DNA of 64,000 bases from assembly GCA_901472405.1 (NCBI GenBank), contig LR590463.1, positions 4,092,001-4,156,000 of the forward strand, read 5' to 3'. Shown one piece after another: positions 46,670-64,000 of this stretch. Position numbers and translations under genes: made by a program. The stretch is from Serratia rubidaea (GTDB taxonomy: Bacteria > Pseudomonadota > Gammaproteobacteria > Enterobacterales > Enterobacteriaceae). Every line of letters begins with the position of its first letter. Position 1 is the stretch's first letter. The notes under the pieces were generated by a model. It searched no databases. It was not told the DNA's origin and saw nothing but the letters and a program-made list of their open reading frames with translations.

Positions 46670-46700
46670 TTATTCCAACCAAGCTGACAGAAAATCCAGG

Positions 46701-46721
46701 GTGACTAAATTATTTAGTCAC
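46701..46721 (+). terminator. Terminator after acs
   Basis: GTGACTAAA and TTTAGTCAC form a perfect 9-bp stem with a TTA loop, followed by TATTTTAC, 32 bases after the acs stop. Confidence 0.75.
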
Positions 46722-46985
46722 TATTTTACACGCTCAGGATAAAAGGACGGATAAATGCCAGAGCAAGGTAATCATGTTATAACCAAGACTAGTAGGATAA
46801 AAAAACATCAAGGCTCACATAATAATAATCGCACCACGAAAACCACACAGCCAAAAACGGATGATAGTCAGCGCCCCTTTCTGACTCAGCGAAGATTTAG
46901 TCAATTTCCTTAAAATTATAAAACAAAAATATATTTACCAGGGCCGACACTCTTTACAACCTAATCAACTTTAATGGTGAACATA

Positions 46986-47201
46986 ATGTCTGCTATGTGT
47001 GATTATTACTACATCTGTCGAATAGTTAACTCGAAGGGAATGCATGATATACATGCTGGTTGGTGCAAAGATATCCCATGCATTATTTACAGAGAATACC
47101 TTGGACTGTTCGACACGCCTATAGATGCAGAAAAGGAAGCATTAAAAAGAGGGTATGAAAAGGTTATTGTTTGCTCGTGCAAACATTGTCAAAGTCCCTG
47201 A
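46986..47201 (+). CDS. Small cysteine-rich protein with C-terminal CxCxxC (paralog 1)
   Basis: A 71-residue protein starting MSAMCDYYYICRIVN after GGTGA. The end is GYEKVIVCSCKHCQSP, with a CxCxxC cluster that could bind zinc or iron. Its central part (DIPCIIYREYLGLFDTPIDA then EKEALKRGY) aligns with the convergent gene 47 bases downstream. I do not recognise the family. Base composition is AT-rich compared with the core genome. Confidence 0.55.
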   Translation: MSAMCDYYYICRIVNSKGMHDIHAGWCKDIPCIIYREYLGLFDTPIDAEKEALKRGYEKVIVCSCKHCQSP

Positions 47202-47247
47202 CGCATCCTTCCCGCTCTGTCTAACATACCATCAGGGCGGGTTCAAA

Positions 47248-47457
47248 TTACCGGGTATTTTGACATTGACTGCAAGGGCATACCGAAACCTGCCTGTATC
47301 CTTTTTCTTTTGCCTCTCTCATTGCCCTAAATGGAGAATTAAAATGACCTAAATCTTCAAGTTTGCTAAGGTGCGGAATATTATTGCAACTCGACACATA
47401 TATGTAATTAGCTTCTCCAAGACGGATCCTTTTGGTAACGTAATAACAGCCAGCCAT
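47248..47457 (-). CDS. Small cysteine-rich protein with C-terminal CxCxxC (paralog 2)
   Basis: A 69-residue protein starting MAGCYYVTKRIRLGEANYIY, preceded by an AAGGGGGG-type site. It ends GYRQVSVCPCSQCQNTR. Compared with paralog 1, it shares an early YY, the IP pair, LGxF, an EA pair, GY and the VCxCxxCQ end. The two genes face each other. Function is unknown; the shared cysteine cluster implies a metal site or disulfides. Confidence 0.55.
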   Translation of the reverse strand: MAGCYYVTKRIRLGEANYIYVSSCNNIPHLSKLEDLGHFNSPFRAMREAKEKGYRQVSVCPCSQCQNTR

Positions 47458-47644
47458 TAACCCCCCCTTCTTAACATCCCTTAATTCTTAAATATGAAAA
47501 TACGAATAAAAAGACAAGAAAACCAATCACAGATGATTTGTTAAAAAAATCTACATTTAACCAAATAGAAATACCGCAATCCGCCTTAACTAACAGACTT
47601 AATATTGATGTGTTTAGGCATTCAGCAAACAAAACTCATACAAA

Positions 47645-48177
47645 CTAACCATTCCATAAAAAAACAATCCTACTCATAACTCTGGAAAGAGCAGCACTGA
47701 TATTACTTCCGGTTCTAACTGGATATTTATTCCCGGTGGATAAAACAACCCAATATGTTAAACCATCTATATCCAAGCCGAAAAAATCAATTTCCCCCGC
47801 GAGCCAACTCACCAAACCACCCTTACCACTCAAAGGGATATGTAAACACCTGGACTCCCTGCTATCAATTCTGATGGGTAAACAATCTGGAATAATTCGC
47901 CCTAAAACGCTTTTTCCATCGCCCATTCTATATGATTCAATATCACCGGGCGTTCAGATGAGTTAACAAGCTTAAAATTGAGCGCCACAGGATCATATGC
48001 TCGCCCCTTTTTTTCCAAGCGGACGATTCCTGTTATATCTCCTCGTAGCGAAATACATAATGAAATCGCCATCCACAATCCGCTCAGCAGGAGAAAATGT
48101 AAAAACACCAAAAAAAACAAAATGGCCTTTTTCTCTGCAGAAAAAATCGTCCCTAAAAAGATACCGCCCCCATCCAT
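47645..48177 (-). CDS. Unknown membrane-anchored protein, frameshift in read
   Basis: Two frames join into one protein of about 178 residues. The first part has one membrane segment (AILFFLVFLHFLLLSGLWMA) followed by a soluble beta-rich stretch (YDPVALNFKLVNSSERPVIL). Adding one G near 47915 (GAATGGGCG) continues it as GDGKSVLGRIIPDCLPI to LSRVMSRIVFLWNG. I do not recognise the family. One N-terminal anchor and a periplasmic domain fit an immunity-like or surface role, but this is a guess. Confidence 0.5.
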
Positions 48178-48641
48178 GTATCACTTGATGATAAAATAAT
48201 TATACCTCACGGTTATACATCAGGACAATATCCGGGGATAATATCAACCTGAATATTTTTAGTAAAAACAAGCTCAGATTGAGAATTTTTAAACCTGCAG
48301 TCACAAAATAAAAAATCAACCTAAAAACATAAAAATTCATGCTCTCATTATAAATATGCCGTATACATACATTTACACCACATTGGCATGCTATTCATTA
48401 CCCGACTTCTATTCCTGTTGACACCTCCACGCCTGAATAATATAGTAATCAAGATTATCCCTCACCGAGGGGGTTAAAAATACAACAATAGCCCTACATA
48501 AACAAAAAATACACATAATCGCTTTAGTTATCATTATTTTAATAGCTATAAAACCCTATTGAACAATATTAGTGCACACAGGAACTTTATAATTAAAACG
48601 AAAAAAAATTAGAATAAACCATATACAAAAAAGAGGTCCCC

Positions 48642-48884
48642 ATGTGCATAGTGATGCTTATCACTATAATATTATTATTTCTGATCTCATGGTTTTTTAT
48701 GACGGTAATGCAGGAGCTAAAGCTATCATTTGGGTGACAATAAGCCTATTCTTCTTATGTTGTGCTGCCCTGTATTTCATCGAGTTACTTGGTGTTTTTC
48801 TGCTTTTTTCAAGCGTAGGATGTTTTATTTTTCGGCCGACTGGGTAAGCTAGGTAATTGGGGGGAAGCACTAGTTTTAACTTAA
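48642..48884 (+). CDS. Small membrane protein, frameshifts in read
   Basis: AAGAGGTCCCC precedes an ATG encoding MCIVMLITIILLFLISWFFM. The frame breaks near 48735 and continues as VTISLFFLCCAALYFIELLG and FLLFSSVGCFIFRPTG, then after another break as KLGNWGEALVLT with a stop at 48882. That gives about 80 residues with three hydrophobic segments. Its stop overlaps the next start. No homolog comes to mind. Confidence 0.45.
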
Positions 48885-49048
48885 TGAGCCTTATTTCCCT
48901 GGCCGTAGGATTCTGGATGACAATAGTAAGTGCTGAAAAAATAATAGTGCAAGATGCACTACAGGAGTTCAATATGAGAATAGAAGAAGATAAGCGTAGA
49001 AAGAAATGCCCCTCTCCTCCTATTTTACCGCAAACCGCCTATCGTTGA
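48884..49048 (+). CDS. Small protein with one membrane segment
   Basis: A 54-residue frame starting MSLISLAVGFWMTIVSAEKI, overlapping the stop of the previous gene (TAATG). A hydrophobic N-terminus is followed by a charged tail (EEDKRRKKCPSPPILPQ). The coupling with the upstream membrane gene suggests a two-gene unit of unknown role. Confidence 0.4.
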   Translation: MSLISLAVGFWMTIVSAEKIIVQDALQEFNMRIEEDKRRKKCPSPPILPQTAYR

Positions 49049-49180
49049 TGCGGCCATACCAAGGTGGTTGGTAAAAACAGCCACACGATTATCTATTTGT
49101 TACCTTATAAAAAATACGTCTCCCCAGCAAAATCTCATTGACCAAACCTACATATGTCATTGTTCAGCAATGCCTCAAGG

Positions 49181-49450
49181 CTAGTTAACCCAAATCAAAA
49201 CTACGTCAGGGAACCAGTCCAACGCCGGCCAGAGCAGCATCGCCGATTTAGCCGTAGTATCCAGCTGGGCCTTCGTTTCCCCGTCGCGGGCGCGGGTCAC
49301 CATCCCCTGCTGCACCGTAAAGTAAAACCTGGCAACGGCCTCACAATCCGCAGACTGTGCAATCTCATGCTTTTCCTGAGCAAGCAGCAGGCAGTTTTTC
49401 AGCCGTACAAACATTTCATGACGGCGGAGCCTTAGCTCATGGTTCAGGCT
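49181..49450 (-). pseudogene. C-terminal fragment of a TetR family regulator
   Basis: The last 89 residues of this frame, starting NHELRLRRHEMFVRLKNCLL and ending ALDWFPDVVLIWVN, look like the ligand-binding half of a TetR/AcrR regulator (CEAVARFYFTVQQGMVTRAR). No helix-turn-helix region is found upstream; the sequence there is unrelated. It is therefore a decayed fragment at the edge of the island. Confidence 0.6.
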
Positions 49451-49599
49451 GTCCGCTATAACAGCAGGATTCAGGCAAAAAAAACCGGCCACGGCAGCCG
49501 GAAGTGATGAATAGCAAAAAGCAAAATACAGCTTGGTAAGGATTACCAAGCCTTGGTAACAATAACGGACAGAAACGGTTTGCTCAAGTGACGACATTG

Positions 49600-49923
49600 T
49601 CAGTACAACCATCGACCCGCTCTGGCAGACTCTGCAAACATGCGTACGGTCAACGGTGGTTTGCTTTGTACCAACGGTTTGTTGGTGAACCATTTCCTGA
49701 AGAACCATTCATGCCGCCAGGGATAGTATTTGTTCCAATCCAGGGCAGAGACATCGACACCGAACACCTCATCGTATTTTCCGATGGCAAACTTTACTTC
49801 ATCGTCCTCGGCATATTCCTGCAACGGGTCATCCAGCTCTAACGGGATAGTCTTAAACGTGAAGGTCGCGAGAACGGATAGCTCTTCACGAAAGAAGGCC
49901 AGCACCTCCTCATCACTTACCAT
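49600..49923 (-). CDS. DUF1493 family protein
   Basis: A 107-residue acyl-carrier-like protein. DEEVLAFFREELSVLATFTF and ending LTVRMFAESARAGRWLY are the DUF1493 landmarks, with YYPWRHEWFFRKWFTNKPLV between. Its start lies inside the 3' end of the STM2901-like gene (TTATGGTAA), so the two are translationally coupled. The pair is known from Salmonella and other Enterobacterales, usually in variable regions; the function is unknown. Confidence 0.8.
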   Translation of the reverse strand: MVSDEEVLAFFREELSVLATFTFKTIPLELDDPLQEYAEDDEVKFAIGKYDEVFGVDVSALDWNKYYPWRHEWFFRKWFTNKPLVQSKPPLTVRMFAESARAGRWLY

Positions 49924-50366
49924 AACTTATCCTCTCCACGGGCAATCTTGTTGTAGCGCGTGGTGGCTTTTACCGTGATTTGGGCGATGTCGTTAGCCAA
50001 AATCACCCAGCCAAGAACCGGCACGGCACGGCCGACAAACACCCCGAGGTTGTTAACCATTCTGACCTTGAATTTTCGCACTGAGCCTTTTGTTACCGTT
50101 GGTAAAATTGCGCGTTTGAAGCGCACGTTTAAGTGTTTGCGGAAGAATAACGATGCGTGTGACGTTCCTGGTGTTGCTGTGCCCGGTTTACCTGGTACGT
50201 GTATAGAATTATCACCCAGAATTAATGCGGCGACGCCTAAAACATCTTGAACGCCTAACTGTTCCTCGACGGTATCAATCATGATCCAGAACAGCAACTC
50301 ATGCGCTGATAGGTTCGCGACGCCTTTATAAAAGTAAGTTCCATCCAACTCTTCAACAGTATCCAT
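49917..50366 (-). CDS. STM2901 family protein
   Basis: A 149-residue protein starting MDTVEELDGTYFYKGVANLS, with LGVQDVLGVAALILG in the first half and GVFVGRAVPVLGWVILANDI, a probable membrane segment, near the end. This matches the STM2901 family as I recall it. The start at 50366 is chosen because similarity begins there and GAGGGAACAGG precedes it. It is the first gene of a pair with DUF1493. Confidence 0.75.
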   Translation of the reverse strand: MDTVEELDGTYFYKGVANLSAHELLFWIMIDTVEEQLGVQDVLGVAALILGDNSIHVPGKPGTATPGTSHASLFFRKHLNVRFKRAILPTVTKGSVRKFKVRMVNNLGVFVGRAVPVLGWVILANDIAQITVKATTRYNKIARGEDKLW

Positions 50367-50684
50367 ACCTGTTCCCTCAACTAAACATGCTCGCAACATA
50401 ACCAATGATGGAGGGGTTTTCAATGTATGGGTAAGTTTCCTAATGGGACCCTGGTGAGGCGCAAGTTTAGGAAAAGAGGATGTAGGCGAGGCATTTCAGC
50501 GTTTAGGCGGCGCCTGTTTCACTGTTTTCTTCACCCCGTGGCATTCACTATAAGCGTCCCCTCACCTGATGGAACAGGGTGAAAATCACCCTTGAAATAT
50601 ATAAACCAAAGTGATATTAAAATCAGTTGGCCAAAATACGATAAATTCAATTTAAAATAAATTAATCAGAGAGTTAAGTTAAAG
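50367..50684. other. Region between STM2901-like and GNAT genes
   Basis: A 318-base divergent region. The half nearest the GNAT gene is AT-rich and likely holds its promoter. I see no recognisable gene or strong hairpin. Confidence 0.35.
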
Positions 50685-51095
50685 ATGAATATCAACATCA
50701 CCGACAACCCTAATCCGCAGGATGAAGCATTCGTTATAGACAGCCTGTGGGCGCACAACCATAAAACGCAGCCCGTAGATATTCATCCGCTGTTTCTGAC
50801 CGTCACCGACGACAATCAGCAAATCGTCGGCGGCCTGGTGGCGCGCACCTGGTGGGGCGGCCTGGAAGTGCAATATTTGTGGGTCGGCGATCGGTGCCGC
50901 AACAGCGGCTACGGCCGCCAGTTGATGCAGTTGGCCGAAGAAGAAGCCCGTAAGCGCGGCTGCCATATGGCTTACGTCGATACCTTCGACTTCCAGGCCA
51001 GAGGCTTCTACGAAAAACTGGGCTACCGGCTCTACGGCGAGCTGGGGGATTATGCGCATCGCCACACCCGCCATTATCTGGCGAAAAACCTGTAG
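50685..51095 (+). CDS. GNAT family N-acetyltransferase
   Basis: A 136-residue acetyltransferase with the acetyl-CoA motif LWVGDRCRNSGYGRQLMQLA (RxxGxG type) and the C-terminal ARGFYEKLGYRLYGEL. Substrate is unknown. It is followed after 17 bases by a LuxR-type regulator and then a permease, all in one direction, so the three probably form an operon. Confidence 0.88.
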   Translation: MNINITDNPNPQDEAFVIDSLWAHNHKTQPVDIHPLFLTVTDDNQQIVGGLVARTWWGGLEVQYLWVGDRCRNSGYGRQLMQLAEEEARKRGCHMAYVDTFDFQARGFYEKLGYRLYGELGDYAHRHTRHYLAKNL

Positions 51096-51112
51096 CGCGG
51101 CCTGAGGTGGGT

Positions 51113-51802
51113 ATGGGCTCTTCGCAGAAAAATGATGAATCTTATTTTAAGGGCCTCGTCACCATGATGGAGCACCTGAGCGAACCTTGGGGCATCAAGG
51201 ACCGGCAGTCCCGCCACCTCTATATGAACCGCGCCGCTTATCTCTATACCAATACGCCGCTGAACTTCGACGTCGCCGGCAAATATGACCACGAATTCCC
51301 CGCCGACTGGGCCGACTCTGCCGCCGACTTTATCGAGCACGATAAAATGACAGAGGCGGCGCGCGATCGGGTCACGGTGATCGAAACGCACTATTGGTAC
51401 GGTAAAGACAGCCTGACGCCGTTTATCAGCGAAAAGCTGCCGGTCTATAACGACGACGAGCAGATTATTGGCGTGATCTGGAACGCCAAACCGCTGAACA
51501 GCTTGTCGCCGCTGAAATACATCAATCAGCAAAAGCCCAGCATCTTGACCAGCGAGGTCAATCATGCGCTGTTCACCCGGGCCGAGCTTGATGTTATTTT
51601 CCTTATGCTGCAAAGGTTTACGGTGAAAGAGATCGCCAAAATCTATAGCGTCAGCAATAAAACCATCGAAAACCGCATTTACACCATTTACCAGAAAGCC
51701 GATGTGCATACCCAGCAGCAGTTCGAAGAGTATTGCCACTACGCTAATCTGGATAACTACATCCCCGACCGCCTGATAACCAAGGGCATTCAGTTTATCT
51801 GA
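51113..51802 (+). CDS. PAS-like/LuxR helix-turn-helix regulator
   Basis: A 229-residue regulator. The first 150 residues look like a PAS sensor (PWGIKDRQSRHLYMNRAAYL, and IIGVIWNAKPL). The C-terminal helix-turn-helix reads FTVKEIAKIYSVSNKTIENR and on, as in LuxR-type proteins of the HTH-only group. The ATG at 51113 is preceded by GAGGTGGGT. Lying between the acetyltransferase and permease genes, it probably regulates this operon. Confidence 0.85.
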   Translation: MGSSQKNDESYFKGLVTMMEHLSEPWGIKDRQSRHLYMNRAAYLYTNTPLNFDVAGKYDHEFPADWADSAADFIEHDKMTEAARDRVTVIETHYWYGKDSLTPFISEKLPVYNDDEQIIGVIWNAKPLNSLSPLKYINQQKPSILTSEVNHALFTRAELDVIFLMLQRFTVKEIAKIYSVSNKTIENRIYTIYQKADVHTQQQFEEYCHYANLDNYIPDRLITKGIQFI

Positions 51803-51822
51803 ACCACAAGGAAGCTCTCACC

Positions 51823-53124
51823 GTGATAAAGATCGAAGACTATCCGCTCACCCGGGTGCCGCAGGATAAAAGAGTGTCGTTTCTCAGCGTCGCCATCGTG
51901 CATATGGGCATGCTGACCGCACTGGACCAATTTATGCTCGGCGCCGTGCTCGGCAACGCCATGACGCTGGCCGATGCCTTCAGCGCCATTTTCGTCGGCA
52001 GCCTGATCTTCGGCGTGGTGACCTACGGCCTGGGGCTGGCGGGCATGCGCGAGGGGATATCCGGCAGCCTGCTGGCGCGCTGGTGCGGCTTCGGCCGTCT
52101 GGGATCGGTGCTGATCGGCGTGGTGGTGGCCGTCAGTCTGCTGGGCTGGTTCGGCATTCAAAACGCCATTTTCGCCAAGTCGCTCGACTTCGCGCTGGGC
52201 AATAAACTGGGCTTTGGCCTGGCCGCCGGGCTATCCGGCTCGTTGCTGACCATCCTGGTGGCGTTCGGCTTTAAAGCGCTGCGCATTGCCGCGCGCATCG
52301 CGGTGCCGATGTTCATCATGCTGGTGGCCTATATTTCGCTGACCACGCTTTCCGGCCATAACCTGCATGAAATTATCCAGCTCGCACCACCGGGCGAACC
52401 GCTGACCATCAGCGCCGGCATCACCATCGTCGTCGGCGGCGCCATCGTCGCCAGCCTGATGACGCCCGATCTGACCCGCTATGCCAAAAGCGGCAAGCAC
52501 GTGCTTGGCGTCACGGTCTTCACTATCGTCGCCGGCGAATTCGTAGTTAACGGCCTGGCGATCCTGATCGCCAAAACGCTGGGCACCGCCGACGTGGTGA
52601 CCATCATGTCGCAAGCGGCCGGCGGCGCCGGTCTGCTGGTGGTGGTGTTCTCCACCCTGCGCGTCAACGATCTTAACCTGTACTCCTCGTCATTAGGCAT
52701 CGTTAACGCGGTGGAAGGCATCACCGGCAAAAAGCTCAAGTACACCTACACCACGCTGGCCATCGGCATTCTGGGCACCACGCTGTCGGTGCTGGGCATT
52801 CTCGACCGTTTCGTCGACTTCCTGACGCTGCTCGGCGTCGTCTTCCCGCCGATTATCGGCATCATGCTGGTTGATTACTATCTGCTGCGCAGCCAACGCA
52901 AAATCCTGGACGAAAGCCGCCGTGCAGGCCGGCTGCCGGATGAAACAGCGGCCATCGGTTGGGCGGCGATCGTCGCCAGCATCGTCGGCGGCGCCGTCGG
53001 CCTGGCGACCGAATGGGGCGTGCCGACGCTCAACTCCCTGGTGGTCGCCAGCCTGCTGTATTGGCTGCTCAAACTGGCCTTCAGCCGGGCGCAAAAACCG
53101 CTGGCGTCACAGAAATCGCTCTGA
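51823..53124 (+). CDS. NCS1/CodB-like purine-cytosine permease
   Basis: A 433-residue transporter with about twelve membrane segments. VVAVSLLGWFGIQNAIFAKS, VVGGAIVASLMTPDLTRYAK and PPIIGIMLVDYYLLRSQRKI are hallmarks of the cytosine permease branch. It starts with GTG after AAGGAAG. No deaminase gene accompanies it, so the substrate could be cytosine or another nucleobase-like compound. A terminator follows. Confidence 0.88.
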   Translation: MIKIEDYPLTRVPQDKRVSFLSVAIVHMGMLTALDQFMLGAVLGNAMTLADAFSAIFVGSLIFGVVTYGLGLAGMREGISGSLLARWCGFGRLGSVLIGVVVAVSLLGWFGIQNAIFAKSLDFALGNKLGFGLAAGLSGSLLTILVAFGFKALRIAARIAVPMFIMLVAYISLTTLSGHNLHEIIQLAPPGEPLTISAGITIVVGGAIVASLMTPDLTRYAKSGKHVLGVTVFTIVAGEFVVNGLAILIAKTLGTADVVTIMSQAAGGAGLLVVVFSTLRVNDLNLYSSSLGIVNAVEGITGKKLKYTYTTLAIGILGTTLSVLGILDRFVDFLTLLGVVFPPIIGIMLVDYYLLRSQRKILDESRRAGRLPDETAAIGWAAIVASIVGGAVGLATEWGVPTLNSLVVASLLYWLLKLAFSRAQKPLASQKSL

Positions 53125-53130
53125 TCGAAC

Positions 53131-53156
53131 GCACGCCTCCCGTGAGGAGGCGTGCG
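53131..53156 (+). terminator. Terminator hairpin after the permease
   Basis: CGCACGCCTCC and GGAGGCGTGCG pair around CGTGA directly after the permease stop. The T tract is poor, so termination may be partial. Confidence 0.55.
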
Positions 53157-53233
53157 CTATATGGGGAAATGCAGGGTTCGCTGCAGAAGAAAGGGCCGAT
53201 TACACTGACATAAATTAACTTAGACAGATGTCG

Positions 53234-53653
53234 TTACGGCCTGCCCTCATAGCCGTCCAAATAGGTACCCTCAATCGCGTCCCCCATGGCCTTACGCTCT
53301 TTTGGTGAAAGGTTTCGGTCATCATTGTAAGTCCGCCCCGCAAACGTTGTTTTCCCCTGAATGGATGTCAGGAAATCTTCACTACGGAACAGGGAAACCC
53401 GTTTCATTGCCTCATCCCGGGACACACCTGCCGCCCTGTCCTTGATCCCCATCTCCCGGAACTGTTGGAAGAACGGCACCATCAACCGGGCGCTGTCGGA
53501 CTTTTTAATACGAAAATGCGGATCGAAACCCTCATCTGCCGCGTAAACATACTGTCGTGCATGGCGCTCAACGCTGGTTTTAGGGGCGCATGCCGATGTC
53601 ATCAATGCCGCAATCAGCATAGAGACAAAAAGAATCACATAGGGTCGTTTCAT
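53234..53653 (-). CDS. Exc2 family lipoprotein
   Basis: A 139-residue lipoprotein with lipobox MTSAC (lipidated cysteine at about residue 22). The mature part contains RQYVYAADEGFDPHFRIKKS, then FREMGIKDRAAGVSRDEAMK and LSPKERKAMGDAIEGTYLDG. I associate this with the Exc2 family, named after an entry-exclusion protein of colicin plasmids; the recall is moderate. It lies next to the bacteriocin genes, which supports a plasmid origin for the locus. Function here is unknown. Confidence 0.65.
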   Translation of the reverse strand: MKRPYVILFVSMLIAALMTSACAPKTSVERHARQYVYAADEGFDPHFRIKKSDSARLMVPFFQQFREMGIKDRAAGVSRDEAMKRVSLFRSEDFLTSIQGKTTFAGRTYNDDRNLSPKERKAMGDAIEGTYLDGYEGRP

Positions 53654-53959
53654 AAAGGTCTCCTTGTTAGAAAAAATTCCCTATTCAATCTTTGCACTCC
53701 CTCTCCTTTATACCGCCCAGGTAAAGAGTGTCAGGAGCCCAGGGAAAGCGGAATAAAAATAACACTTTTCTATACGAACCTTCACTGTCATTCACTATAT
53801 AAATTGGTCGAGATTACAGGTAATAACGACAGTGAAAACGCTCACCATAATACATTTGACGACAGCAGAAATCCCGACATGAAAACGCAAGTTCAGAAAA
53901 CCATCCCAGTTCGCCGGATAATGAGAATAACTCAAGCGAGTAACCTCCGTCCCCTTGGG
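53654..53959. other. Region between Exc2 gene and colicin promoter
   Basis: About 300 bases, AT-rich, with no credible gene. It contains the presumed promoter of the lipoprotein gene on the minus strand. Confidence 0.35.
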
Positions 53960-54012
53960 TTGACATCGACGTGGAGTGCTTGTAAATTACCCAATACTGT
54001 ATATATGTACAG
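53960..54012 (+). promoter_or_regulatory. SOS-controlled colicin promoter with LexA box
   Basis: TTGACA (53960-53965) and TAAATT (53983-53988) are separated by 17 bases, a good sigma-70 promoter. CTGTATATATGTACAG at 53997-54012 matches the LexA box (CTGT-N8-ACAG) just downstream of the -10. This is the classical arrangement of colicin genes, which are repressed by LexA and induced by DNA damage. Only one clear box is seen, where many colicins have two overlapping ones. Confidence 0.85.
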
Positions 54013-54054
54013 TATTAATTAAGGATAATTTATAGTCAGTTTACGGAGGTAAAC

Positions 54055-55230
54055 ATGTTTTTTAATACAAACACAAAGTTTAAGCTGCTTGCACCACGCA
54101 ATGAGGACAGCATGACAGTTTCGGGTTCAAGCGGTCGCCCAGGCCAACAGGACCCAGTGGAAATGCTGGGGGAAATGGAGGGAGTTCTTCGTCTGGCGGA
54201 AAACGTTCTTCACGGCTCCAAATTGTCGGTGAGTCACGAGCCAAAGCTCTAGGTATAAACCCGCAACATATTCTTTTTTATTATATTGATGAAGATCGAA
54301 ACATCATGGCCGTCACTCAAGGTTTCGTTATGGTCGATGATGATATACATCCTGCCAGAACCAATTTGGGTCCGGCACCTGCGGATTTACTCAATGACAG
54401 CGGTAACAGCGGTACTAAAAGTTATAGTAATATTACAGAACAATATGGTGGTGATATTTCTGATTCTCGCATCACTACATTGCATAAAATCATTAGGGAT
54501 AATGCTTTCTGGGCTAATCACTCAGACTCGGGCGTAAGAATAACCAACGCACGACAAGCAACTCTTGGAGCCAAATTTGAGCTAGCTAAGATTGATTTAG
54601 TCCGTAAAATCATAGAAGAGCAAAATTTAAAAAAAGACGAGAAAGAGGCATTAACAAAAGCCAGTGAACTGCTCGCTGACATGGGGGGTAAAATCGGCGA
54701 TGTTATTGGTGAAAAATACAAATCAGTGTCAAAGGAAATCGCCGAAAACGTTAGAAACTTTCAAGGAAAAACCATTCGCAGCCATACCGATGCCATGGCA
54801 TCCCTAAATAAAATCCTGGCCAACCCAGGAATGAAAATAAAAAAAAAGGTGACAGTGAGGCGCTGAGTAATGCGTGGAAACTCCTGAATGCCAACGATAT
54901 GGCAAACAAGCTTGGGAATCTAAGTAGGGCGTTCAAAGTCGCTGATGTAGCAATAAAGGTTGATAAAGTTCGAAAGAAGAGCATAGAGGGATATGAAACA
55001 GGGAACTGGGCTCCCCTAATGCTAGAGGTGGAATCCTGGGTTCTGAGTGTATGGCGGCAAGTCTGGCTATCGCATTGTTTGGCGCCATCATTGGTGCAAT
55101 GTCTCTCCCCGGCCTGGCAATAACAGCTTTAAATATATTTGGAATCATAGGAATAAGCTACTTAGCTTCGTTTATTGATGCAGGAATGGCCGATAGGATA
55201 AATAAAGAAATAATTCGCCAAGTGAATTAA
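54055..55230 (+). CDS. Pore-forming colicin with TonB-box-like motif and colicin A-type pore domain, frameshifts in read
   Basis: Restoring one base near 54153, one A in the run near 54847 and one G near 55048 gives 392 residues. Residues 18-22 read DSMTV, a pentapeptide like the TonB boxes of group B colicins. A glycine/serine-rich linker (about 23-52) follows, then a central domain of unknown receptor specificity (about 55-185, QIVGESRAKALGINPQHILF). Residues about 190-392 match the colicin A pore domain as I recall it: NFQGKTIRS, MANKLGNLSRAFKVADVAIK, SIEGYETGNWAPLMLEVESW and a hydrophobic hairpin. It should kill related bacteria by depolarising the inner membrane. ACGGAGGTAA precedes the start. 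No lysis gene is seen. Confidence 0.88.
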
Positions 55231-55237
55231 TAAAGTA

Positions 55238-55266
55238 AAGAGAGGTGGTTTTACCACCTTTCTTTA
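55238..55266. terminator. Bidirectional terminator between colicin and immunity genes
   Basis: AGGTGGT and ACCACCT pair around three Ts, with AAAG/CTTT extensions on each side. The stop codon of the immunity gene lies within the stem-loop, so the two convergent genes share this structure. Confidence 0.7.
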
Positions 55267-55785
55267 AAGGCCCTAAACGTACCGATAAAAAACCAAAGAT
55301 ATAAATAAGTAAACAAAAAAATAACACAGTACAGGCTAATATAAAAGAATGACAAGAAAATGTCATTTGTAGACATGAGGTTAAGTACCCGGGCCGAGTT
55401 AGTTAACTCTTTATTAGTAAGCAAGAAGCTATAAATCAATACCATGTAAAAAAAAAGAGAACAAAAGATAGAGTCTTAACAAATACCATTTTGGACTTAT
55501 CTTTTTTAACCTAAGTTTTTTGTTTGTAATCAAAAACAAAACAAAAGCAACAAATGGTGATGTTTTCACATAAACATCCATCACCTTGCTTAATAAAGGA
55601 CTTTTAAATGAATAAATTGCAGGCAGGTGACGGGTAATAGAGGCAACGTTATTCAACATGGTAGATGTTGGATCTTGAACGTAAATACCAATTATGAAAA
55701 AAAATGGCAACAGAGCAACAAACAGGACAAGAAACATCACTTTTGCCACCTGACCACCGTTATCAACCTCATTACGAATATCCAT
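55251..55785 (-). CDS. Colicin A-type immunity protein, frameshift in read
   Basis: Two frames join at an A run near 55446-55454 to give about 178 residues, the length of the colicin A immunity protein. There are four hydrophobic segments, the first in VMFLVLFVALLPFFFIIGIY. LLSKVMDVYVKTSPFVAFVL and STNDIFLSFFYISLYCVIFL align with the colicin A immunity protein as I recall it. Such proteins sit in the inner membrane and block the cognate pore. It is encoded antisense to the colicin, as for colicin A, and is expected to be expressed constitutively. Confidence 0.85.
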
Positions 55786-56138
55786 TTTAAATATACCACC
55801 ATCACATTTATTTCACCCTGAAAACCATAACGAAAATTAATAATAAATTGAATTATTCATGCTTATTAACAATAAGTTATAGCTTATCAGCACCCGCTCA
55901 ATGAGTATTCACTATGATAACGAATAAATCCAGCAGGAGTAGCAACACAATGAGGTTCTATCAGAAAAAAGAGAGCGCATTCATCTAACAAAAAGCCTGA
56001 AAAAAAGATAGGGGCACCCCAACTGCCGACAGTCCGACTCCCCCTATTTATACAAATCGCCTGCGGCGGATTTTTCATTTTCCGGGGAAGGTTCTTCATC
56101 GGACACCGCCCCCGAAGACATCGCCTATGCCGGCCGTA
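55786..56138. other. Region after the immunity gene, no lysis gene found
   Basis: This 353-base region is where colicin A plasmids carry the lysis gene. I see no small lipoprotein frame. A hairpin, AAATCGCC/GGCGGATTT followed by Ts near 56050-56072, may end transcription. A 70-codon minus-strand frame (55887-56099) has no recognisable product. Confidence 0.4.
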
Positions 56139-57083
56139 TTATCTCAATGACTTATCAACCAAAGCGCCCACCTGCACAGGGTTCGGTAATATCTTTAACT
56201 GATAAAACAAATCAGCCACCGGTTGCAGCCTGTCGATATCCTGCTGACTAACGCTATGCACACCTTTGGAGGTACGGCTCGCAATGCGTCGGGCGGTATC
56301 GAGCGGCAGACGCGTCAGCCGTGCGTAAACCTTGGCGTATTCTTCCGGGTTGTCGAGCGCCCACTGCCGCGCCTTGGCGACGCGTTCGGCAAAGTCTTTA
56401 ATGGCCGCCCGCTTGTCCGGGTCGGCCAGTGAGCGCGTGGTGGCGGTCAAAAAGCCAAGCGACGGCGTTAATCCCTGGCCATCGCGCAACAGGCGCGCAC
56501 CGTTCTGCTCCGCAACGCCCAGATAGGGATCAAACACCGCCCAGGCGGCGACTCTGCCGGTATTGAATGCCGCGCTGGCGTCGGTGGGCATCACAAACTG
56601 GATCTGTACATCTTCCCGCTGTAGCCCGGCCTCTTGCAGCGCCGCATACAGCAGATTTTGCGAAATGCTGCCGCGCGCCGACGACACCACCACCGTCTGC
56701 CCTTGCAACTGGCGGACGCTGTGGAGCGGTGAATCTTTGGGCACGATAATCCCGTTAGACTGGGCATAACCCACGTTGGTCTGAATTAACTTAAAATCCA
56801 CCCCGCCCGCCGCGGCCATTAAGATCGGCAGATCCCCGGCATAGGAGGTATCTACGGCGTCTGCGCGCTGCGCTTCAAACAGCGGCGCCGCCCCCTGGAA
56901 ATTGGCCCACCGATACTGATAGGGCGCATCTTTCATCACGCCGGCGGCCTCAACCAGACTGCGCAGCCCGCGCGCCTGATCGCCCAGCACCAAGCTGGCA
57001 TCGCCGATCGCCCCGTGCGCCAACGATGTCATCAGCAGCGCGGCGCTCAGCCCCGCGGCCCGAATTAACACAGCAACCTTCAT
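56139..57083 (-). CDS. SsuA-like ABC transporter substrate-binding protein
   Basis: A 314-residue periplasmic protein with signal peptide MKVAVLIRAAGLSAALLMTS ending near AHG. Segments YAGDLPILMAAAGGVDFKLI, SNGIIVPKDSPLHSVRQLQG and RVAAWAVFDPYLGVAEQNGA are typical of binding proteins for sulfonates, taurine or nitrate. It is the last gene of the minus-strand unit with the rhodanese and cysteine dioxygenase-like genes, so an organosulfur ligand is likely. Confidence 0.85.
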   Translation of the reverse strand: MKVAVLIRAAGLSAALLMTSLAHGAIGDASLVLGDQARGLRSLVEAAGVMKDAPYQYRWANFQGAAPLFEAQRADAVDTSYAGDLPILMAAAGGVDFKLIQTNVGYAQSNGIIVPKDSPLHSVRQLQGQTVVVSSARGSISQNLLYAALQEAGLQREDVQIQFVMPTDASAAFNTGRVAAWAVFDPYLGVAEQNGARLLRDGQGLTPSLGFLTATTRSLADPDKRAAIKDFAERVAKARQWALDNPEEYAKVYARLTRLPLDTARRIASRTSKGVHSVSQQDIDRLQPVADLFYQLKILPNPVQVGALVDKSLR

Positions 57084-57123
57084 CCTACCGTTCCTCTTTA
57101 CCGGCCATGTCTTGCCTGATGAT

Positions 57124-58703
57124 TCAGAGCACGTTAAAGCCATGCGTGGCGTCACGTTCCAGTTGCGCCACCAGCCCGAACTCCCAGTCCAGATACGCCT
57201 GCATCGCCTCACGCGGGTTGTCCGTCCCTTCATACGGACGGCGGTAACGATCGATCCGCGGTGAGATCAGGCGACCTTCCCCGCTCACCAGCGGCCGATC
57301 TTCGGCGATCCACGCCTGCGTTCCGCCGGCCAGCAGCCGTACCGGCTTGCCGGTCAGCGCGGCCACGTCCGGAACCGCATAGCGCGCCAGCAGGCTGCTG
57401 CCGCAGGTCAGCACGTAGCGTTCGGCCGGCGGCAGGTTTTCCAATGCCAACGGCAGCCGCGAGCGGATAACCCAGTGCGCGCCGGGAATATGGCGCGCCA
57501 CGTAGTTGGCGCTGGTGGTAAAGTCCAACAGCACCGTCCCCGGCTGCTCCAGCAGTTCAGCCAGCTGCGCGGGAGTGATTTCATCTGCCGGCGGCGCCGG
57601 CGGCAGCACGGCGGCGGGATCGCCCTGCTCGCTAAAATCATCGGCAGTCAGGCCGTCTAACACCGCGACCTCCCAGCCCATCTGCGCCAGCCAGGAAGCG
57701 CTCATATTGGCGCGCACGCCGTCATCGTCCACCAGCACCACGCGGGCGCCGCGTACGCTGGCATAGTGATCCGTCTCCTGCACCAGCTGCCCGCCCGGCG
57801 TGCTGTGGCTGCCCGCCACATGCCCGGCGCGATACGCCTCGGGGTTGCGTACATCAAACAGGTAGGTGGTGCGCGCCGTATCCCGCTGCCATAACGCCAG
57901 CGTTTCACGGTCAATGCGCCTTACGCCGGCCTCATCGGCTACCCGCCGCGCCTGCTGTCGGGCCTGCGCCAGATTATCCGCGCTATCCGGGTAGCGGCGC
58001 TGCTGCTGGTGTTCCAGCGCAAACCCCGCCAGCCCCAGCCGATGGTGCCGTTGCGTAACGCCGCCACCGGATTGGGGATGCCGGCATTAATCAGCGACTG
58101 GGTGCCGATAATGCTGCGCGTACGCCCGGCGCAGTTAACAATAACCCGGGTGTCAGGATTCGGCGCCAGCGCATGGATCCTCAGCACCAACTCCGCGCCC
58201 GGCACGCTGGTGCTGGTGGGGATGCTCATGGTCTGATACTCATCAAAGCGGCGCGCATCAACGATGACCACATCGGCATGGCGATCGATAAGCGCCTTAA
58301 CCTGCTCTGCGGTCAGCGATGGCGTGTTCCTGCGGTTTTCCACCAGTTCGCCAAACGCCTTGCTGGGCGTATTCACGTCCTGAAAAATTTCACCGCCGGC
58401 GGCACGCCAGCCCGCCAGACCGCCGCTCAGCAGGGCAACATCGTCGTAGCCGAACTGCCGCAATCGCCCTGCCGCCTGCTCAGCCAACCCTTCGCCAGCG
58501 TCATAAACGACGATCGGCGTGGTACGGCGCGGAATACGCCGATAGATTTCCAGCTCCAGTTTGCTCAGCGGAATATTCACCGCAAACAGCGGGTGGCTTG
58601 CCGCAAACTCGGCTTCTTCACGCACATCGATCAACGCCAGTTCCTGACCAGCCACTAACGCGGCGCGCAGCGTGGGAAAATCACGGTAAACAAAGGCAGT
58701 CAT
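57124..58703 (-). CDS. Four-domain rhodanese-like sulfurtransferase, frameshift in read
   Basis: Restored length is 526 residues after adding one G near 58035 (TGGGGCTGG). Four rhodanese modules can be traced. Modules 1 and 3 have acidic loops (VVYDAGEG and VLVDDDG) in place of the catalytic cysteine. Module 2 has Cys191 in IVNCAGRTRSI, and module 4 has a cysteine in YVLTCGSSLLA. Alternating inactive and active modules are usual in tandem rhodaneses. It lies two bases after the cysteine dioxygenase-like gene and 40 before the binding protein. A role in moving sulfane sulfur to sulfite is inferred. Confidence 0.85.
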
Positions 58704-58705
58704 AG

Positions 58706-59305
58706 TTACACGTCCTTAGAAAAGTCCAAGATATGAGTCGGTTGCGGATTGGAGTAGCCGGAAACGAAGGGCTTCACGACGCCACTTTCGCTGTACACCG
58801 CACGCCTGACGGCGCCGATATTGCCGCCATACACATGAATACTGATCGAAACGCGATCGCTAAACGCATTGCGGACCTGGTGAATATCCCCGTCCTGCTC
58901 GGACAGCTTCGCCACCTGGCCGACGGTTAACCGCTCGGCGTCGCCCGCGGTTCGGGGCATCCCCTGGGCGTCCAGCACGTAGCGCTGGTTAATTTCAGCG
59001 CCGCGCAGCACGCCAATCAGCCCCCACACGCGGTGGTCATGGATCGGCGTAATCTGTCCCGGCCCCCAAACGAAGCTGACGATGGAAAAGCGCTGCTCGG
59101 CATCCATATGCAGCAGGTACTGTTGATAGTGCTGAGGATGAGGAGCGGCGTATTCTTCCGCCAGCCAGTCATCCTGCCGCACCAGCTCGGCCAGCCGCGG
59201 CGCTGCCTGTGCCAGTCGCGCCGCATCGCTCAGCGGCTGCTGATGCAGTTGCTCCAGATGTTTGATGAACTGACGTAAACGGTCTAAAGGTAATGGCGTT
59301 GTCAT
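58706..59305 (-). CDS. Cysteine dioxygenase-like cupin protein
   Basis: A 199-residue thiol dioxygenase. TPIHDHRVWGLIGVLRGAEI carries the two iron-binding histidines, and ISIHVYGGNIGAVRRAVY carries the third. Such enzymes oxidise cysteine, or a related thiol, to its sulfinate with iron and oxygen. The family includes 3-mercaptopropionate dioxygenases, so the true substrate is open. It is the first gene of the minus-strand unit and faces the LysR gene across the repeated ATGCAT element. Confidence 0.85.
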   Translation of the reverse strand: MTTPLPLDRLRQFIKHLEQLHQQPLSDAARLAQAAPRLAELVRQDDWLAEEYAAPHPQHYQQYLLHMDAEQRFSIVSFVWGPGQITPIHDHRVWGLIGVLRGAEINQRYVLDAQGMPRTAGDAERLTVGQVAKLSEQDGDIHQVRNAFSDRVSISIHVYGGNIGAVRRAVYSESGVVKPFVSGYSNPQPTHILDFSKDV

Positions 59306-59363
59306 AAGGCTTTCCTGTCTGAGGCCTGCCTAGCACGCTAACAGAGAACCAAACATTAACTAA

Positions 59364-59392
59364 ATGCATTTTTTTGATAAACTAAAATGCAC
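59364..59392. promoter_or_regulatory. Paired ATGCA element, site 1 (between dioxygenase and lysR genes)
   Basis: ATGCAT (59364-59369) and ATGCAC (59387-59392) lie 23 bases apart, start to start, with GATAAA and an A run between them. The same arrangement occurs at 60341-60369 before the monooxygenase operon. It is a candidate binding site for the neighbouring LysR regulator. Confidence 0.5.
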
Positions 59393-59414
59393 AATACACA
59401 TAAACAGGAAACCC

Positions 59415-60302
59415 ATGCGTACAGACGATATTGATGCGCTGCTGGCAGTAGTGCAGTTTGCTTCGCTGAACCGGGCCGCGGAACACCTTGGCATCAGCCA
59501 GTCCGCCATCACCCGCCGCCTGCAAAGCTTTGAGCAAAGCCTGGGCGCCACGCTGCTGGATCGCCAGACCAAACCGCTGAAACTGACCGCCATCGGCCGC
59601 CGCGTGTATGAACAGTGCCTGACGATCAAACGTGAGACCAAGCGGTTGGAAAGCTTACTTAATCAGGATGCAGAGCCCAGCGGCCCGCTGCGGCTGGGGA
59701 TCCCGCAAAGTCTGAGTGAAATTGCCTTGCAGCCGGCGCTGGCGGCCCTCGGCCAACATTACCCGCAGCTGCGCCCGCAGGTCATGTGCGGCTGGGGCGG
59801 GCAGTTGCTCAAACGTCTGGAAAACGTTGAGCTGGACAGCCTGCTCGCCATGGGGCCGGCGCAGCAAACCTTCGATGGCAGCCTGGAGGCAAAAGCGCTG
59901 TGCCCGCTGGAGGTTGTCGTGATCGCCAGTAAGCACCTCAATCTCAGCGCCACCCGCCTCAGCGACTGCGCCCACCACGGCTGGATATTGAACCCCGACG
60001 GTTGCGGCCTGCGCGCCGGCCTAACCCGCGATTTACAGTCGCAAAGTCTGGGGCTGAAAATCAACGTGGAAACCGCAGGCGCACAGTTGCAAATCAGCCT
60101 GGTCGCACAAGGCCTGGGGCTGGGGCTGGTGCCGAAGGCCGCGTTAATCCACAGCCCGCATCAGCATGAGATCGCCGTGATGGAACTGGCCGACTTCCAG
60201 CCGAAAGTGCAGCTGTGGCAGGTCAGCAGCCGGGGGCTGGGTAACCTGCAGCAACCCACCACTTTTTTTGCCGAGAAGATCGTGCAGGAACTGTTGCACT
60301 AA
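59415..60302 (+). CDS. LysR family transcriptional regulator
   Basis: A 295-residue regulator. The helix-turn-helix reads FASLNRAAEHLGISQSAITR then RLQSFEQSLGATLLDRQTKP. The effector domain contains GPLRLGIPQSLSEIALQPAL and LVAQGLGLGLVPKAAL. The ATG at 59415 is preceded by AGGAAACCC. It lies between two organosulfur transcription units and presumably controls both, as CysB and Cbl do for sulfonate genes; the effector is unknown. Confidence 0.9.
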   Translation: MRTDDIDALLAVVQFASLNRAAEHLGISQSAITRRLQSFEQSLGATLLDRQTKPLKLTAIGRRVYEQCLTIKRETKRLESLLNQDAEPSGPLRLGIPQSLSEIALQPALAALGQHYPQLRPQVMCGWGGQLLKRLENVELDSLLAMGPAQQTFDGSLEAKALCPLEVVVIASKHLNLSATRLSDCAHHGWILNPDGCGLRAGLTRDLQSQSLGLKINVETAGAQLQISLVAQGLGLGLVPKAALIHSPHQHEIAVMELADFQPKVQLWQVSSRGLGNLQQPTTFFAEKIVQELLH

Positions 60303-60340
60303 TTGAATAAAAATAATGAGTTAGCCCAATAATAAATTAT

Positions 60341-60369
60341 ATGCATATTAAGATATGATAAAAATGCAT
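60341..60369. promoter_or_regulatory. Paired ATGCAT element, site 2 (before monooxygenase operon)
   Basis: ATGCAT (60341-60346) and ATGCAT (60364-60369) are 23 bases apart, start to start, the same spacing as site 1. The second half is preceded by GATAAAA in a similar way. It lies about 105 bases before the monooxygenase start. Confidence 0.5.
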
Positions 60370-60473
60370 TTAGATCATTAGAACCTTGCGTATAGGGTAT
60401 AAAAACAGCGCTGCTTATCGCCAATCCGTAGGCAGCGGCCAAGCCCTATCACGCATCCTGGCAAGGAGTTCTA

Positions 60474-61556
60474 ATGAGCGTCCAATTTTTAGGCATGATC
60501 GGCCACCGCCTGTCTTCGGAAATCATCCCCCCGGCAGGCCCGATATTCGACAGCGACTATATTGTCCGCTTTGCGCAAGTTCATGAGGCTGCCGGCTTTG
60601 ATCGGCTGCTGGTCGGCCACTGGTCCGATCAACCCGACGGTTTTTTGGTCACCGCGCTTGCCGGGCTGTCGACGCAGAACATCAAATTCTTACTGGCGCA
60701 CCGGCCGGGGTTCGTTGCCCCTACCCTGGCGGCGCGCAAATTCGCCACTCTGGAGCATCTGCTGAACGGTCGTCTGGCGGTGCATATCATCAGCGGCGGC
60801 AATGACGCAGAGCAGCGCCGCGACGGCGACTATCTCGATCACGATCAACGCTATGCCCGCACCGATGCGTTTTTAGACATCGTGCGTCAGGCCTGGACCC
60901 AGGATCGGCCATTCGATGCCCACAATGATTTCTACCGGGTCGAGCAGGCCTTTTCCGCCATCAAACCGCTCCAGACGCCGCATATCCCCATCTTTTTCGG
61001 CGGCTCGTCAGACGCGGCCATCGCCGTCGCCGGCAAACACGCCAATGTCTTTGCCCTGTGGGGCGAATCGCTGGCGCAAACCCAGGAAACCATCCAGCGC
61101 GTGCGGGCTGAAGCGGCCAAACACCAGCGCCAGCTCGACTTCAGCGTCTCCTTCCGGCCCATCATTGCCGCCACAGAAAAACAGGCCTGGGAAAAAGCGG
61201 AAGAAATCCTGCACGTCGCCACAGAACATGTCGCGCAGCGCGGCGTCGGGGCGAAAAACAAGCCCAACAGCGTGGGCGCGCAACGCCTGTTGGCCACCGC
61301 AGCGCAGGGCAACGTGGTGGATAAACGCCTGTGGACCGGCATCGCCAAACTGTACGGCGGCGGGCACAACTCAACCGCGCTGGTGGGCACCCCGGAGCAG
61401 GTCGCCGACGCCCTGCTCGATTACTACGATCTGGGGGTGAATAATTTCCTGATTCGCGGTTTCGACCCGCTTAACGATGCCGAGGAATACGGTAAAGAGC
61501 TGCTGCCGATCGCCCGCGCCAAAATCGCCCAGCGCGACGCCAGACAAAGCGCCTGA
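60474..61556 (+). CDS. LLM-class FMN-dependent monooxygenase (SsuD-like)
   Basis: A 360-residue flavin-dependent oxygenase. The barrel shows FAQVHEAAGFDRLLVGHWSD, FLLAHRPGFVAPTLAARKFA, HIISGGNDAEQRRDGDYLDH and PIFFGGSSDAAIAVAGKHAN, all characteristic of alkanesulfonate monooxygenases. With FMNH2 and oxygen, relatives release sulfite from sulfonates. CAAGGAGTTCT precedes the ATG. It is the first gene of a plus-strand unit with an SfnB-like flavoprotein and two binding proteins. No dedicated flavin reductase is visible in the window. Confidence 0.88.
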   Translation: MSVQFLGMIGHRLSSEIIPPAGPIFDSDYIVRFAQVHEAAGFDRLLVGHWSDQPDGFLVTALAGLSTQNIKFLLAHRPGFVAPTLAARKFATLEHLLNGRLAVHIISGGNDAEQRRDGDYLDHDQRYARTDAFLDIVRQAWTQDRPFDAHNDFYRVEQAFSAIKPLQTPHIPIFFGGSSDAAIAVAGKHANVFALWGESLAQTQETIQRVRAEAAKHQRQLDFSVSFRPIIAATEKQAWEKAEEILHVATEHVAQRGVGAKNKPNSVGAQRLLATAAQGNVVDKRLWTGIAKLYGGGHNSTALVGTPEQVADALLDYYDLGVNNFLIRGFDPLNDAEEYGKELLPIARAKIAQRDARQSA

Positions 61557-61573
61557 CGACAAGGGGATTCCGC

Positions 61574-62791
61574 ATGCCATCGCTCCGCTCTACGCCGTCG
61601 CTTGGGCAGCAGCACATTCACCCGCCGCTTGAACAAATCCGCGCGCAGCTGGCGCAGCAGGCCGCCGAGCTCGACCGCAGCGGCGCGTTCCCGCACGCCA
61701 ATCTGGCCTGGCTGCACCAGCATGGCCTGCTGGGGCTAGCCTGCGCGCCAGATTACGGCGGTGCGGGCGCCAGCCTTGCCGTCCTGCAGCAGGTGGTCAG
61801 CGCCATCGCGCAGGGCGAACCCTCAACCGCGCTCATCGTCTGCATGCAGTATCTGCATCACCTGCGCCTGGCTGCCGATACCGACTGGCCAGAGCCGCTG
61901 CGCAGCGCCGTCAGTCACAGCGCGGTGCGGCACGGCGCGCTGCTCAACAGCCTGCGGGTAGAGCCGGAACTCGGCTCCCCGACGCGCGGCGGCCTGCCCC
62001 ACACCGTGGCGACGCGCACGCCGACGGGCTGGCGGCTCAACGGCCATAAGCTTTATACCACCGGCATTGAGGGGCTGAGCTGGCTGGCGGTCTGGGCGCG
62101 CAGCGATGACGCTACCCCGTTGGTCGGCACCTGGCTGGTGCCGCGCAGCAGCGCGGGCATCACCCTTACCCCCAGCTGGAACCACCTGGGAATGCGCGCC
62201 ACCGGCAGCCATGAAGTGGTGCTGCAAAACGTTGAGGTGCCGCTCAGCCATGCGGTGAGCGTTTACCCGGCCGGTCAGCCGCCGGCGCCCAATACGGCGC
62301 GGATCCAGACCGCCGCCAACGCCCATACGGCCCTGCTGGCGGCCATTTATGACGGCATTGCCCAGACGGCGCGTCGCTGGCTGCTCGGCTGGTTGCAGCA
62401 GCGCGTGCCGGCCAGCCTCGGCGTCCCTTTGGCCACGCTGCCCCGCGTGCAGGAAAACGTCGGGCAGATCGATGAAATGCTGTTGGTCAACCAAAGCCTG
62501 CTGCGTCAGGCGGCCGCGCAGGCCTTCACCACCGAACAGGCCAATCTGGCGAAAATCACCATCACCGAAAACGCCGTCAATGCGGTGGGCAAAGCGCTGG
62601 CGCTGACCGGTAACCACGGCCTGACGCGCCACAACCCGCTGGAGCGTCACTACCGCAACGTGCTGTGCGGCCGGGTACATACTCCGCAGAACGACAGCGC
62701 ATGGGTTAACGCCGGCAAAGCGGCCTTGACCGGCGTCGCGCAGGGCACTGACTTTACACCGAAGGATAAGGATCACTATGTGGCGTCTTAA
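61574..62791 (+). CDS. Acyl-CoA dehydrogenase-like flavoprotein (SfnB type)
   Basis: A 405-residue member of the acyl-CoA dehydrogenase fold. GLLGLACAPDYGGAGASLAV in the N-terminal part, WNHLGMRATGSHEVVLQNVE in the middle and NHGLTRHNPLERHYRNVLCG near the end match the branch of FMN-linked desulfurising proteins such as SfnB and DszC. It begins 17 bases after the monooxygenase gene and overlaps the next gene by 14 bases. A role in oxidising a sulfur compound is inferred from the context. Confidence 0.8.
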   Translation: MPSLRSTPSLGQQHIHPPLEQIRAQLAQQAAELDRSGAFPHANLAWLHQHGLLGLACAPDYGGAGASLAVLQQVVSAIAQGEPSTALIVCMQYLHHLRLAADTDWPEPLRSAVSHSAVRHGALLNSLRVEPELGSPTRGGLPHTVATRTPTGWRLNGHKLYTTGIEGLSWLAVWARSDDATPLVGTWLVPRSSAGITLTPSWNHLGMRATGSHEVVLQNVEVPLSHAVSVYPAGQPPAPNTARIQTAANAHTALLAAIYDGIAQTARRWLLGWLQQRVPASLGVPLATLPRVQENVGQIDEMLLVNQSLLRQAAAQAFTTEQANLAKITITENAVNAVGKALALTGNHGLTRHNPLERHYRNVLCGRVHTPQNDSAWVNAGKAALTGVAQGTDFTPKDKDHYVAS

Positions 62792-63752: not shown

Positions 63753-64000
63753 AACACACTGCCCGGTATTCACGCCGTCGCTTCCTCAGTCTGAGCAGCG
63801 GCCTGCTGGCGGCGCCGTTGTTAGCCGGCATCTCGCCCAGACTATTCGCCCACGATATGTCGGCCATGCCGCAGGCGGAGGGCCATGCGCTGCGCCTGCC
63901 CGCGCCGTATAAGCTGAAGCTGGCCATTAACCAGAGCGCGGTGTGCATCGCGCCCGTCACGGTGGCGGAGCAGCAACACTTTTTCAGCAAATATAATTTG
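63749..64000 (+). CDS. Tat-exported ABC substrate-binding protein, 3' end outside window
   Basis: The first 84 residues are visible. The N-terminus has a twin-arginine signal (RRRFLSLSSGLLAAPLLAGI). The mature part, YKLKLAINQSAVCIAPVTVA, then EQQHFFSKYNL, looks like the start of a sulfonate- or taurine-type binding protein. The ATG overlaps the stop of the previous gene (ATGA). The use of Tat export differs from the Sec signals of the two other binding proteins. Confidence 0.75.
   Translation, partial: MKHTARYSRRRFLSLSSGLLAAPLLAGISPRLFAHDMSAMPQAEGHALRLPAPYKLKLAINQSAVCIAPVTVAEQQHFFSKYNL

Follow-up and report, generated by a model that had tools for sequence, protein, structure and literature searches.

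A chromosomal gene for a pore-forming colicin with a TonB-box-like N-terminus, in broken reading frames as assembled, in Serratia rubidaea

Klebicin E of Klebsiella pneumoniae is described as a protein of 377 amino acids that has the TonB box EETLTVV and a colicin A-like pore domain and that depends on OmpC and the Ton system (PMC10906532). Colicin B is listed as dependent on FepA and TonB, and colicins A and N as dependent on the Tol system (PMC9558359); the same source gives OmpA/OmpF/LPS and Tol as the route of bacteriocin 28b from Serratia marcescens, whose published mass is 47.5 kDa (PMC13101503). The protein P0005 in the record L104 is also 377 amino acids long, with an EETLTVV box and 7/8 of the residues that the published description gives as critical, and because of this size, box and set of residues we take P0005 to be klebicin E or a very close relative of it. 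At L004 2866-4554 and L104 2821-3954, the genes for klebicin E and for P0002, a relative with DSMTV, have protelomerase genes as neighbours; both plasmid records come from Klebsiella and measure about 54 kb, and the arrangement resembles that of linear phage-plasmids.

The DNA analyzed here (the window) is a stretch of 64,000 nucleotides from the chromosome of S. rubidaea. It contains a chromosomal gene for a pore-forming colicin, which lies in broken frames as assembled, with the following features in and around it.

53234-53653, minus strand: gene for an Exc2 family lipoprotein, the upstream neighbour of the cassette (NF033828, E 1e-46)
53960-53988, plus strand: promoter-like TTGACA-17-TAAATT, on weak evidence (5 such sites in the region against a shuffle mean of 7.2, not above chance)
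53997-54012, plus strand: LexA-type SOS box CTGTATATATGTACAG, a perfect CTGT-N8-ACAG, 58 bp before the start codon
54055-54120, plus strand: N-terminus ending in DSMTV, frame 1
54105-54863, plus strand: open stretch in frame 3, covering linker (Gly/Ser) and central domain as well as the first third of the pore domain
54201-54632, plus strand: central (putative receptor-binding) domain
54633-54845, plus strand: first part of the pore domain, frame 3, matching solved colicin pore domains
54845-55040, plus strand: second part of the pore domain, frame 2
55033-55230, plus strand: hydrophobic hairpin and C-terminus of the pore domain, frame 1
55243-55259, minus strand: terminator-like hairpin where the colicin and immunity genes converge
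55251-55785, minus strand: colicin immunity gene (Colicin_im), in two frames (55429-55785 and 55251-55445)

The start codon, ATG at 54055, is separated by 4 bases from a GGAGGT motif. The sequence-only reading had treated 54055-55230 as a single protein of 392 residues, but that figure (1176/3 = 392) counts through stops, which occur throughout the straight reading of this stretch, and the breaks in frame had been missed. Ordered by homology, the coding pieces pass through frame 1 (54055 to about 54120), frame 3 (54105-54863), frame 2 (54812 to about 55040) and again frame 1 (about 55033 to 55230), ending at the stop at 55230; there are three frame changes within 54055-55230 and one more in the convergent immunity gene. 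As assembled, the colicin stretch encodes no functional protein; in the living strain the gene probably codes for about 390 residues. Other elements of the earlier reading held up: DSMTV is present at residues 18-22 (54106-54120), a Gly/Ser-rich linker follows it, and the unfamiliar central domain, put at about 130 residues, spans about 140. The proposed chimeric layout of a TonB box, a receptor domain of its own and an A-type pore was likewise borne out, and is complete in an intact relative (G629).

The three pore pieces match, in order, the solved pore domains of colicins A, N, B and S4. Colicin A was the best match among solved structures for the first two pieces (E 4.4e-25 and 3.9e-29), colicin N was the best match for the last (E 4.1e-10, with colicin A at 6.1e-4), and the colicin B pore domain matched the first two of the three pieces at 85 and 82 bits and left the last unmatched. 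By homology, the killing domain is placed in the A/B/N/S4 group rather than with colicin A in particular. Against the PF01024 cut-off of 23.4 bits, pieces of the broken gene scored 14.0 and 21.4 bits and the last piece gave no score, while the intact G629 relative scored 56.7 bits. Because of the broken reading frames, a PF01024 family search therefore misses the colicin gene, and the search of the source genome was negative (0/1).

A TonB-box-like motif near the N-terminus, as in group B colicins, is present here as DSMTV, and the toxin probably enters target cells via the TonB system. The best short match of the N-terminal piece was the N-terminus of a Klebsiella colicin, MPEDSMTV. TonB-box-like motifs occupy the same N-terminal place in 5/6 relatives of the central domain, giving such an N-terminus to 6/7 aligned proteins that carry this domain; the remaining one, from G715, has a colicin-A-like N-terminus. 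Among 915 ORFs of at least 200 aa, taken from stretches of three related genomes, the strict pattern [DE][TS][LM][TV]V occurred within the first 30 residues in none and a looser form in four, both patterns having been set after DSMTV was seen. The alternative, a Tol-dependent entry like that of colicins A and N with DSMTV as an incidental match, would fit a pore of the A/N group, the published account of bacteriocin 28b as Tol-dependent (PMC9558359), and the G715 protein, in which the same kind of central domain follows a colicin-A-like N-terminus that resembles, by eye, that of the ColA_N-bearing Serratia E36 colicin. However, Pfam scans of the N-terminal and frame-3 pieces gave no ColA_N (PF22348) match, nor was this domain found in any piece here, though it was detected in the Tol-type-looking E36 protein, and the rarity of DSMTV-type motifs at N-termini, together with their counterparts in five of the six relatives, also argues against Tol entry, which we regard as improbable.

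The central part of the protein looks undescribed. None of seven members (0/7) matched any Pfam family, and the domain had no match by sequence among solved structures; two structure predictions from two-row alignments were of low confidence (mean pLDDT 54.7 and 48.8) and gave nothing in Foldseek at E<1. The domain was not met in literature searched with general terms, a kind of search that cannot show absence from print. The window's copy is 37-42% identical to those of six aligned relatives, and it matched Pantoea bacteriocins at E 3e-18 and 2e-26, the latter value being relative to candidate stretches only. It occurs in two Pantoea agglomerans plasmid records and one Pantoea sp. contig, the latter being the one find of a two-row profile that was scanned with no more than two short patterns. 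An exact-peptide scan of genome contigs with the frame-3 piece found no relative, and searches among phages and among viral contigs found none. In the family survey the domain was present in 5/392 genomes, namely the source genome, G464, G590, G629 and G715; the order-wide survey found it in 1/394, the source genome only, and a second survey around G629 with a seven-row profile in 3/294, none of them additional, the last of these surveys sharing genomes and thus not being independent. The source genome was also the sole match in a survey of 60 relatives. PF01024 matched in 30/392 family genomes and coincided with the central domain only in G464, G590 and G629.

The relatives in G629 and G590 come from two other genera and have the same layout intact. 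The first has 382 residues, with EDTMNV near its start, the central domain, the pore domain and an adjacent Colicin_im gene; the second is longer, at 417 residues, and has GTITV, a charged insertion, the central domain, the pore domain and again an adjacent Colicin_im gene. The G464 relative (L128 849-2112) combines GTMNV, the central domain and the pore domain, is split over frames, and adjoins an open immunity frame. The G715 relative (L140 133-2106, minus strand) is a 658-residue bacteriocin in which the central domain stands between the colicin-A-like N-terminus and a Pyocin_S domain. Across seven bacteriocins, the central domain is combined with pore or Pyocin_S-type killing ends. It might be a new receptor-binding module for an outer-membrane target of no described colicin, shuffled as a unit between TonB- and Tol-type arms and between pore and Pyocin_S-type ends, with one receptor served by both energy systems; we offer this tentatively and consider it rather doubtful. 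A compact chromosomal pore-forming bacteriocin of another kind was seen in G322 (L106, minus strand), as a 319-residue open frame whose N-terminal part is different, near a gene for an immunity-like membrane protein.

The first part of the convergent immunity gene matches PF03857 (E 3.4e-15), and each half finds its place, in the right order, in alignments with single intact immunity proteins. Upstream of the colicin gene, the LexA-type box is one of 2 CTGT-N8-ACAG matches in the window, against 0.45 expected (9/100 shuffles reach 2); the other site lies at 49449-49464. In the G464, G629 and G715 relatives such a box precedes the start by 39-48 bp (43 bp in G629), and none was found within 400 bp before the starts of the G590 relative and of the Pantoea bacteriocins L003 and L010. 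Between 53100 and 56300 we recognised no lysis gene, the one lipobox-like ORF there, of 34 residues, seeming fortuitous; the region 45000-64000 showed no tRNA. The left flank (50436-53125) matches the sister species G001 at 92%, and to the right of the cassette there was only a 28-base match to G001, with 40/216 candidates scored; in G001 itself we detected neither a colicin pore domain nor a match to the cassette. From the low GC and the Exc2 neighbour, we infer that the cassette was acquired from a plasmid. Genes for Exc2 family lipoproteins recur near colicin genes elsewhere (L002 1824-2222, L006 4223-4636, L101 9300-9722 and L103 5345-5752), an Exc2-like ORF is also present in L008, and these colicin-associated Exc2 genes sit on several plasmids. 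Further along the window, at 57124-58703 on the minus strand, two adjacent ORFs look by eye like one rhodanese-like sulfurtransferase cut in two, which may be a further frame break of the assembly.

The source genome is a single contig of 5.0 Mb with a listed completeness of 91.24%. We compared conserved ORFs of at least 200 aa in 20 stretches of 20 kb from this genome and from each of three relatives. Frame changes were present in 5/23 (G010 as reference), 2/11 (G027) and 10/26 (G001) of the conserved genes of the source genome, the window included, against 0/65 over six control comparisons among G001, G010 and G027 (0 of 17, 6, 11, 11, 15 and 5), the comparisons sharing genes and thus not being independent. 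Forward tests with other thresholds gave 8/26 and 8/27. A reverse test, with ORFs of the source genome against G001, had shown changes in 6/25, and was set aside and replaced by the three-reference test because an ORF that is itself shifted matches in another frame. ORF N50 was 332 in the source genome, versus 395, 389 and 382 in the three relatives. Counting one-base differences from G001 over 41 kb, the source genome lacked 36 bases and had 25 additional ones, most of them away from long homopolymers; shortened runs are thus not the sole kind of error, and some of the differences are true ones. Since conserved genes change frame in this genome and in none of the 65 control cases, the assembly therefore carries indels widely, and given this high rate of broken conserved genes elsewhere in the genome, we think it fairly likely that the frame breaks at the colicin locus are mainly assembly indel errors rather than the result of decay.

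The breaks lie in AT-rich DNA (GC 43% and 33%). Nine-A runs are found at one colicin break (54839-54847) and at the immunity break (55448-55456); of the other two colicin breaks, one falls in a stretch with a five-G run and one at no long homopolymer. The locus has 4 frame changes in 1.73 kb versus 0.3-0.8 expected (P 0.0003-0.008), an excess over the genome rate that would suit a true pseudogene, in which an acquired colicin-immunity cassette has decayed and nothing is made. Breakage of the toxin gene and the immunity gene alike would be consistent with such decay, as would the occurrence of colicin genes in two frames on two Salmonella plasmids (L002 2444-3552 and L008 2474-3759) and the split relative in G464, a genome listed as 100% complete although its colicin gene is split, which indicates that real decay happens in this group. 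Decay nevertheless seems to us somewhat unlikely, since indels run through the whole assembly, nine-A runs coincide with two of the four breaks, and, the breaks apart, the start site, the LexA box and all parts of the gene are in good order. The same nine-A runs could point to programmed or phase-variable frameshifting that makes or switches the full protein, but four separate frame changes would be required, the intact relatives need none, and the same defect runs across the whole assembly, so that we give this explanation almost no credence.

With assembly error as the preferred account of most of the breaks, we favour, on balance, a horizontally acquired, SOS-regulated colicin-immunity cassette of TonB type. 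In such a cassette, DNA damage would relieve LexA repression of the colicin gene, as the box suggests, and the central domain may then dock on an outer-membrane receptor of related bacteria. The disordered N-terminus would bring DSMTV to TonB in the periplasm, which, to judge from the motif, would pull the toxin in. The C-terminal domain, like its homologues in colicins A, N, B and S4, would insert in the inner membrane and depolarise the cell, while the convergent Colicin_im protein is predicted to protect the producer.

Through this locus a small group of colicins comes to light whose receptor-binding domain is apparently undescribed; this domain is found on pore and Pyocin_S-type ends and with TonB-type and colicin-A-like N-termini. 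This group is natural material on how the choice of receptor is coupled with the energy system, and Tsx, given as the receptor both of colicin K (Tol) and of colicins 5 and 10 (TonB) (PMC9558359), is a published precedent for one receptor with two energy systems. It is also a warning that an indel-rich assembly hides such colicin genes from family searches, PF01024 having been silent in the source genome.

Bacteriocin 28b is, like the colicin of the window, a chromosomal colicin-like pore former according to print, and is set apart by its published description, with a mass of 47.5 kDa and a route through OmpA/OmpF/LPS and Tol; the earlier worry that 28b might be a described relative is lessened, though not removed, by this published size and Tol route. 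The Pantoea bacteriocins L003 and L010 share a TonB-box-like GTMTV, a Gly/Ser linker and a central domain in the same range of identity, but have about 700 residues and a charged helical region, and in L003 a Pyocin_S domain replaces the pore, as a Pfam scan showed. Colicins A and N have the closest solved pore domains, whereas they are Tol-dependent in print, and here no ColA_N was found and the central domain is unmatched. Colicin B is TonB-dependent in print, and two of the three pore pieces here, the first and the second, match its A-type pore, but it is larger (511 residues in 1rh1), and its receptor is FepA, with a receptor domain unmatched by the central domain here. The pore domain of klebicin E is only 33-38% identical to that of the window colicin, and its OmpC-binding central domain showed no similarity (hhalign probability 0.4%; BLASTP on the relative P0002, E 0.97); because the central domains are unrelated by sequence, OmpC is not to be assumed as the receptor. 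In other respects klebicin E is alike, with a similar size, an N-terminal TonB box, a Gly-rich linker, a small globular central domain, a colicin A-type pore and an SOS box, and its compact layout with an adjacent immunity gene is found here in pieces, with the frames broken, and intact in G629 and G590. The contrast drawn by the sequence-only reading between TonB colicins and an A-type pore fails, since colicin B and klebicin E combine both: a TonB box with an A-type pore has colicin B as an earlier example and klebicin E as its compact precedent.
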